Below are positions 37,397 to 40,133 of a stretch of DNA of 64,000 nt, one piece after another; within the stretch, counting starts at the first letter, position 1, and each line of letters starts with the position of its first letter. Source of the DNA: Marinobacter alexandrii. GTDB lineage: Bacteria > Pseudomonadota > Gammaproteobacteria > Pseudomonadales > Oleiphilaceae. The DNA is taken from NCBI RefSeq assembly GCF_005871205.1, contig NZ_SWKM01000011.1, positions 1,178,001 through 1,242,000 of the forward strand. Direction: 5' to 3'. The notes beneath the pieces were generated by a model that worked only from the letters and a program-made list of their open reading frames with translations, did no database searches and was not told where the DNA came from. Both the position numbers and the translations under genes were made by a program.

Positions 37397-38752
<1,356 letters not shown>

Positions 38753-38772
38753 GCCCGTAGGGAGGATTTGCC

Positions 38773-39657
38773 ATTAAAACCATCTTTGTCCAGGGACCGG
38801 TACCGGGCTTTAGACTCTTTCTCATTATTATCCTGTCGGCAACCCTCGTGGTTGCCGATGCCCGTTTTGATAAGCTCTCCACCGTCCGCAGTGTCATCGC
38901 TACCGGGCTCGCTCCCGTGTACTGGCTGGGTAACGCGCCCTCCGAATTCGGTGACTGGTTCGCCGGCCTGTTTGAAAACAAAGAAGATCTGCAACAAGAA
39001 AACGAAGACCTCAAGGCTCGTCTGCTCATCCTTGAGCGCAGGGCGCTGAAATACGCTGCGCTGGCGTCCGAAAACAACGAACTCCGCCGACTGATGAATT
39101 CCTCCGAGGTTCTGGATGACCGCGTGATCGTTGGTGAGGTTGTCGGTGTTTCCCCCGATCCGTTCTCCCACGAAGTGATCATCAACAAGGGCCGCAGTGA
39201 CGGCTTGAGGCCGGGCCAGGCGGTGCTGGATGCCCAGGGCCTGATGGGGCAGGTGGTGCAGACCAGCCAGATTACCTCCCGAGTGTTGTTGGTGTCGGAC
39301 AGTAGCCACGCGGTGCCAGTTGAAGTAGTGCGCAACGGCTTGCGGGCCATTCTGCTCGGGACCGGTGATACCTCAACCCTGGAGTTGGTCCATGTTCCTG
39401 ATACCGCGGATATTCGTGAAGGGGATCTGCTGGTCAGCTCCGGTCTGGGCGGGCGCTTTCCCCGCGGCTACCCGGTGGCTGAGGTCAGTTTAATCAACAA
39501 GGAACCCGGCGAGCCGTTTGTGGCTATAGAGGCGGTCCCTCGGGCCCAGCTGAATCAAAGTCGCCTGGTGCTGGTAGTGTTCCCGCCGGCAATCACTGAG
39601 GATGATGTTGGAAACGCTGATGCCGGCGCTGAAACGTCCGAAGAGGGGGAAGGCTGA
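38773..39657 (+). CDS. mreC: rod shape-determining protein MreC (probable ATT start)
   Basis: MreC links MreB to the periplasmic wall machinery. It has one membrane span (FRLFLIIILSATLVVADAR, about residues 13-31), a coiled coil (about 65-105) and a beta-rich periplasmic domain. The frame is closed upstream by a TAG at 38758-38760, and no ATG, GTG or TTG occurs between it and the membrane span. GGAGG (38761-38765) sits 7 bp before an ATT at 38773, which would give IKTIFVQGPVPGF, an N-terminus of the right kind and 294 residues. The first ordinary start, GTG at 38848, would remove the anchor. Confidence 0.88.
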   Translation: MKTIFVQGPVPGFRLFLIIILSATLVVADARFDKLSTVRSVIATGLAPVYWLGNAPSEFGDWFAGLFENKEDLQQENEDLKARLLILERRALKYAALASENNELRRLMNSSEVLDDRVIVGEVVGVSPDPFSHEVIINKGRSDGLRPGQAVLDAQGLMGQVVQTSQITSRVLLVSDSSHAVPVEVVRNGLRAILLGTGDTSTLELVHVPDTADIREGDLLVSSGLGGRFPRGYPVAEVSLINKEPGEPFVAIEAVPRAQLNQSRLVLVVFPPAITEDDVGNADAGAETSEEGEG

Positions 39658-40133
39658 TGCTATCTGTAATCAGTTATCCGGTGTTTGCCCTGTCGGTGGC
39701 AGTGGCGCTGGTTCTGAGTATTTCACTATTTCCCGTCGGCTGGTTCGAATTCCGTCCGGAGTGGCTTGGGCTGGTGGTGTTCTACTGGACCTTCCGGGCT
39801 CCGGCCCAGTTCGGTATTTTCCTGGCCTGGATTCTCGGTTTGCTGCTGGATGTGCTTGAAGCAACGCCGCTGGGTGTCAACGCGCTCGCCATGGGGCTGA
39901 TCGCATTCCTGGTGTTAACGATACACCAGCGCCTTCGGATGTACCCGATGCCGCAGCAGTGCCTGTTGGTGTTTCTGCTGTTGGGTATCAATCAGATGCT
40001 CGTGCATTTCATCAAGCAGATGCTTGGCGCCGATGATGCCGGATTCAGTTACCTGTGGCCGGCCCTGACCAGTGCACTGGCGTGGCCAGTGTTTTGTGTA
40101 CTTCTTGATAACATCAACCGTAAGTTGGGATAA
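39657..40133 (+). CDS. mreD: rod shape-determining protein MreD
   Basis: MreD is an inner-membrane partner of MreC. The 158-residue protein is almost entirely hydrophobic, with about five membrane helices, and has the LLDVLEATPLGVNALAM segment seen in MreD. Its ATG overlaps the mreC stop by 1 bp, and maf follows after 2 bp. Confidence 0.92.
   Translation: MLSVISYPVFALSVAVALVLSISLFPVGWFEFRPEWLGLVVFYWTFRAPAQFGIFLAWILGLLLDVLEATPLGVNALAMGLIAFLVLTIHQRLRMYPMPQQCLLVFLLLGINQMLVHFIKQMLGADDAGFSYLWPALTSALAWPVFCVLLDNINRKLG

Follow-up and report, generated by a model that had tools for sequence, protein, structure and literature searches.

A probable AUU start codon for mreC in Marinobacter, with AUH starts predicted across its order and in part of its class

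Few genes with non-canonical start codons have been characterised so far (passages of PMC5472188). Initiation factor IF3 discriminates against AUU, AUC and AUA, as set out in parts of PMC4611024, and the gene that encodes it, infC, autoregulates through a start codon of this AUH type (passages of PMC5472188). The infC start is described as ATC in Streptomyces (passages of PMC5472188), as AUA in Staphylococcus aureus (passages of PMC13009471) and as ATT in Xanthomonas, the last in a proteogenomic study (parts of PMC5559785), while excerpts of PMC4245954 name infC and pcnB as genes with an AUU start. Passages of PMC13009471 put the output of S. aureus AUU and AUA starts with an extended Shine-Dalgarno (SD) sequence at about 10% of that of AUG in poor medium, and the output of the ccpN start at up to 30% of that of AUG in rich medium; they also describe conservation of cvfC1 among Staphylococci and of ccpN between S. 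aureus and B. subtilis. The starts of both sigR and infC have been misannotated in genomes, according to passages of PMC5472188.

Here we examined the start of mreC in a window of DNA (the whole stretch analysed, 64,000 nucleotides) from Marinobacter alexandrii, a member of the Pseudomonadales in the Gammaproteobacteria. An earlier sequence-only reading had proposed that this gene starts at ATT, and on re-reading the sequence the TAG, the GGAGG, the ATT (38773) and the GTG (38848) were all found where it had placed them (Table 1). The product was identified as MreC by protein models above cut-off together with the gene order mreB-mreC-mreD. It scored 199 bits against TIGR00219 (cut-off 92.75), with residue 5 falling on position 3 of the profile, and also matched PF04085. 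The Kyte-Doolittle peak places the hydrophobic anchor at about residues 13-29. The first in-frame ATG, GTG or TTG is the GTG at 38848, which is codon 26 and lies within this anchor, so that a start there would cut it. Pairing of the mreC SD stretch with the 16S tail has a calculated energy of -11.8 kcal/mol.

Table 1. Coordinates of the mreC start region and its operon neighbours in the window
Feature	Position	Strand	Remarks
mreB	37709-38752	+	ATG start; upstream operon gene; control for start codon and SD strength
In-frame TAG	38758-38760	+	Closes the mreC frame 5 codons ahead of the ATT, after the mreB stop
Extended SD, GGGAGG	38760-38765	+	7 nt before the start; core GGAGG at 38761-38765
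Putative ATT initiation codon of mreC	38773-38775	+	Codon conservation, SD placement
mreC	38773-39657	+	294 codons plus stop TGA; predicted ATT start; TIGR00219 and PF04085
Membrane-anchor codons	38809-38859	+	About residues 13-29; from hydropathy and translation
mreD	39657-40133	+	ATG overlaps the mreC stop by one base (TGATG)

The window was scanned for stop-to-stop frames of at least 100 codons in which an ATT, ATC or ATA (ATH) codon follows a strong SD (dG of -6 or lower, core 4-9 nt away) and precedes the first canonical codon by at least 10 codons. Two matches were returned, mreC (dG -11.8) and a frame at 8260-7754 on the minus strand. The latter is a 168-codon open frame with an ATC after a moderate SD (-6.4) and 137 codons without a canonical start, and by eye it is not gene-like. 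Another minus-strand open frame, of 309 codons (38380-39309), lies antisense to mreB and mreC and is probably a shadow frame. A regulatory hairpin over the mreC SD was considered and rejected, since the stretch 38735-38820 folds no better than shuffled sequences (z 0.41).

Among 58 genomes searched as relatives, 57 returned an mreC match. The same-genus set comprised 30 loci, one from our own genome and the others from 29 of the 36 relatives in the genus; every one carried ATT at codon 1. The same was true of all 80 loci in a named set (the best 80 of 337, of which 78 are labelled Marinobacter), whose species overlap with those of the 30-locus set. Aligning the upstream region in other strains, as had been proposed, therefore returned ATT in 30/30 and 80/80 loci of these overlapping sets, and the search for an ordinary start in same-genus relatives found none. 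Recurrence of the codon in 80/80 named assemblies also indicates that the base calls are sound and hide no ATG.

A codon alignment of the 80 named sequences and the window gave 85 columns with one invariant residue among 81 mreC genes, and codon 1 was ATT in 81/81. At 82 of the 84 other invariant residues synonymous codons are used, and the remaining two are TGG, encoding Trp, which has no synonyms; codon 1 is the only fixed codon in these genes for which synonyms exist. At six other conserved Ile columns the codon varies among ATC, ATT and ATA, and the remaining Ile codons of the 81 genes divide into 599 ATC, 467 ATT and 97 ATA. Given that ATT is fixed while the other Ile columns mix codons, selection acts at codon 1 on the bases themselves, which would be expected if it is a start codon and not an inner Ile.

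The sequence before mreC takes at least two forms within Marinobacter (window 38690-38772; L018, L060 and L077). In one form mreB ends MFSQEG near mreC and in the other there is CGGCGGCGGTTGTCGTATGG-type sequence at this place; both keep the ATT and an SD. Two metagenome assemblies labelled Halomonas and Thalassospirochaeta (L041 and L052) carry Marinobacter-type mreC loci, possibly by binning contamination, and one same-genus mreC (G036:C1:175969-176840) was returned as two overlapping match pieces with a TGA inside one of them, possibly an assembly frameshift.

Outside Marinobacter we compared 140 loci, of which 20 were all the same-order genomes matched in the relatives search and 120 were hand-picked from the matches listed in order-wide and class-wide searches, mostly aligning from query residue 1. 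This sample is biased, being enriched for ATH, and some of its loci share a genus; 11 of the 140 rows were shifted by eye by -1 to +5 codons before counting, and one (L235) was left unclassified. The homologous codon was ATC in 55 loci, ATT in 47, ATA in 17, ATG in 13, GTG in 4 and TTG in 3, with 1 unclassified, giving an ATH codon in 119/140 loci of this biased sample (67/81 from the order and 52/59 from other class members). We also used evenly drawn sets (completeness at least 90, all matches returned, own genome in both, starts judged by eye). For the order these contained 18 ATH and 9 canonical starts among 27. For the class, a match was present in 26 of 27 genomes, of which 25 were readable, with 10 ATH, 14 canonical and one ambiguous row (L297), the locus at a contig end (L293) being uncounted. 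Even drawing thus greatly lowers the ATH share of the class relative to the hand-picked sample. On these counts, predicted AUH starts extend across the order and into part of the class, a reach that the sequence-only reading did not see.

E. coli mreC begins ATG-AAG-CCA-ATT-TTT, in codon register with ATT-AAA-ACC-ATC-TTT. Fourteen further regions from within the class included ATC in L263 and L264 and ATG in 10, and no ATH was found near the aligned start in L259 and L260, both also within the class. Six regions from outside the class (L266-L271) have ATG or TTG at the N-terminus, with no ATH start evident in them. In P. aeruginosa CP123788.1 (L274) the predicted mreC start is an ATC at 219, preceded by TAGGAG and, 4 codons upstream, by an in-frame stop; this record annotates the gene from a GTG at 267, 16 codons late and inside the membrane anchor. 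Three other mreC records carry GTG (Legionella and Acinetobacter) or ATG (Aeromonas).

As in the window and in the Marinobacter loci compared, no usable AUG, GUG or UUG stands at the conserved N-terminus in 101 of the 119 ATH loci outside Marinobacter, counted strictly: an in-frame stop lies 1-34 codons upstream of the ATH codon, with no ATG, GTG or TTG between. The other 18 loci are not strictly closed, 14 having an upstream in-frame canonical codon (two of them also without a stop in the sequence examined) and 4 lacking nothing but that stop. Pairing with the 16S tail averaged -7.5 kcal/mol before the ATH codon in the 119 loci, compared with -1.6 ahead of the first canonical codon downstream (n=114) and -2.3 at inner sites taken at random. 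A dG of -4 or lower was reached in 97% of the ATH loci, at 11% of the downstream canonical codons and at 21% of the random inner sites. The SD spacing, 7 nt in the window, was 4-8 nt in 107/119 of the outside loci. Following the ATH codon, K2 (111/119), F5 (117/119) and R14 (102/119) are conserved, while before codon 1 in the same loci no comparable residue conservation was found, the signal there being mainly that of a purine-rich SD. The fixed codon, the position of the SD, the stops upstream and the abrupt beginning of protein conservation together strongly support the proposed ATT, which as the predicted start of mreC we regard as close to certain. The codon and its conservation, the SD and its spacing, the absence of other starts and the overlap with mreD are direct observations, from which we infer actual initiation at AUU.

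The upstream gene provides a control. mreB starts with ATG in all 77 loci where it was found among the 80 named loci (judged by eye), and its start is canonical in 49/49 wider full loci (48 ATG and 1 GTG, with ATG preferred where several candidates were possible). Median mreB SD energies were -3.9 in genomes with an ATH mreC and -3.85 in those with a canonical one (p=0.99). With mreB canonical, the predicted non-canonical start is specific to mreC. Downstream, the stop of mreC and the start of mreD overlap in 79/80 named loci, as TGATG in 77 and TAATG in 2, and the TGATG overlap suggests translational coupling of mreD to mreC.

We compared SD strength by start codon after removing duplicates and dropping L259-L262, L293, L297 and L299, with L235 unclassified. 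The mreC medians were -7.1 for ATH (n=126), -3.25 for ATG (n=32) and -5.7 for GTG (n=9), suggesting that a poor start codon is traded against a strong SD. This trade-off is weaker in the evenly drawn set with E. coli added and L299 left out, where an SD of -6 or lower precedes 20/27 ATH and 10/21 canonical starts, and independent tree pairs do not support a link between ATH and a strong SD. A tree of MreB and MreC with 50 rows (L293, L301 and L302, with no readable mreB, were left out) has ATH on both sides of its midpoint and 13 state changes, many of the forks being weak. ATH is weakly clustered on this tree, 13 changes comparing with a shuffled mean of 16.4 and with 33/500 shuffles as low. 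End branches have a median of 0.37 for ATH and 0.675 for canonical starts (p=8e-5, uncorrected for relatedness). An AUH start is easily lost through one base change, whereas gaining a poor start independently at the same codon seems harder, which favours an old origin with many losses. Although the tree itself cannot tell gain from loss, we infer on this ground that the AUH start of mreC is old and has been replaced repeatedly by AUG, GUG or UUG.

These results are in keeping with a full explanation that we hold to be likely: an AUU start behind a strong SD, slow initiation, MreC and the coupled MreD throttled below MreB, and a trait of old standing. Translation of mreC would begin at the AUU at 38773, where the extended SD would keep the 30S subunit in place and initiator tRNA-fMet would pair despite the third-position mismatch, so that MreC would begin with fMet. 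Given that IF3 discriminates against start codons not ending in G, initiation at AUU should be slow; the low initiation rate and IF3 sensitivity are predicted for mreC by analogy with passages of PMC4611024 and PMC5472188. The overlap of mreC and mreD would transmit this low rate to MreD. Slow initiation combined with TGATG coupling would therefore yield far less MreC and MreD than MreB from the common message, and such a dosage throttle is the simplest and, we believe, most likely reading. In E. coli, MreC is present at about 180 copies, as cited in PMC7793260, and parts of the same paper describe that excess MreC deforms cells and that co-expression of MreD suppresses part of this effect. 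By the same analogy, putative control of mreC by IF3 is a good hypothesis. MreC can function without the weak start, since 14 of the 25 readable, evenly drawn class members begin the gene canonically, as does E. coli.

Other accounts of where MreC begins were weighed against the AUU start. Translation could start at the GTG at 38848, the first canonical codon in the frame, and give an MreC without most of its membrane anchor, much as one P. aeruginosa record is annotated from a GTG at codon 17. However, the first downstream canonical codon of 80 Marinobacter genes falls at 18 different positions, from codon 4 to codon 73, and pairing before such codons in the outside loci (-1.6) does not exceed that at random inner sites (-2.3). 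A start there would also leave the conserved K2, F5 and R14 untranslated and the fixation of codon 1 without a reason, and we reject it as extremely unlikely. In another account the Ile is an ordinary residue, reached from a start further upstream, or by ribosomes that shift frame or read through out of mreB or from an out-of-frame TTG at 38768. The 18 loci that are not strictly closed would suit such entry, and interchange of ATT, ATC and ATA would by itself also suit an Ile codon. Nevertheless, the TAG shuts the frame after the mreB stop in the window, stops close it likewise in the 101 strict loci, an out-of-frame canonical codon lies within 8 nt of the ATT in only 13/80 Marinobacter genes, and codon 1 is fixed in 81/81 while the other Ile codons vary. 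Entry from upstream is therefore very unlikely, and both the TTG and a frameshift from mreB were rejected. The chance that a sequencing or assembly error conceals an ATG is vanishingly small, and this idea is refuted by the recurrence of ATT in different assemblies across the two overlapping sets.

Two further readings accept the AUU start and differ on its meaning. It may have no regulatory role and be a frozen accident sustained by the strong SD. This would fit the many lineages with a canonical mreC start, the strong mreC SD of ATH loci and the lack of any phylogenetically controlled sign of compensation. Yet ATG is one base away and occurs in none of 110 Marinobacter rows (overlapping sets), and the ATH end branches are the shorter ones, on the comparison uncorrected for relatedness, as if slow lineages retain ATH; we consider an accident unlikely. 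A more ambitious reading, possible but doubtful, is that the AUH start is ancestral to much of the Gammaproteobacteria and persists as a sensor of how stringent initiation is. A shortage of IF3 relative to 30S subunits would then raise MreC together with the coupled MreD, tuning wall elongation to translation capacity. E. coli and its relatives would on this account have lost AUH and would keep MreC low by combining AUG with a weak SD.

The kind of start proposed here is known from infC, pcnB and ccpN; mreC as a member of it is apparently new, and its breadth is the surprising part. Among the papers listed in a literature search, mostly from outside subscription journals, none ties mreC, by its title and abstract opening, to an AUU/ATT-type start. 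Besides infC, we know of no AUH start that is as widespread, and an elongasome gene keeping AUU, AUC or AUA across its order and in some of its class would rank among the widest cases. If the prediction is true, some records give mreC a wrong start (one was seen, that of P. aeruginosa), and constructs starting at such an annotated GTG would miss part of the membrane anchor. The mreC start would also offer a testable link between initiation fidelity and the dosage of a cell-shape protein.

With its predicted AUH start, mreC joins infC as a deeply conserved gene of this kind. Both have a start of the type that IF3 discriminates against, ATT in the case of E. coli infC, but infC encodes the discriminating factor itself and closes an autoregulatory loop, whereas mreC encodes a cell-wall elongation protein. 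To our knowledge there is no established link of mreC to IF3. The infC of our own genome (L273, G000:C13) begins ATT AAA CAG, with a TGA closing the frame upstream; it is a second apparent AUU start there, and its second codon is AAA as in mreC. E. coli pcnB shares the AUU start with mreC and, unlike it, lies outside the mreBCD operon. Binns and Masters reportedly described AUU in 2002 as the limiting start codon of this gene. S. aureus ccpN (AUA) and cvfC1 (AUU) resemble mreC in combining a conserved AUH start with an extended SD, as described in passages of PMC13009471, but they are genes of Firmicutes whose starts were shown by experiment, whereas that of mreC is predicted from sequence. 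Finally, passages of PMC5472188 present Streptomyces sigR as a gene whose non-canonical start sets its ratio to a partner protein, as we propose for mreC; repression by IF3 is experimental in sigR and a hypothesis for mreC, and sigR differs in starting at GUC instead of an AUH codon and in belonging to a sigma/anti-sigma pair.
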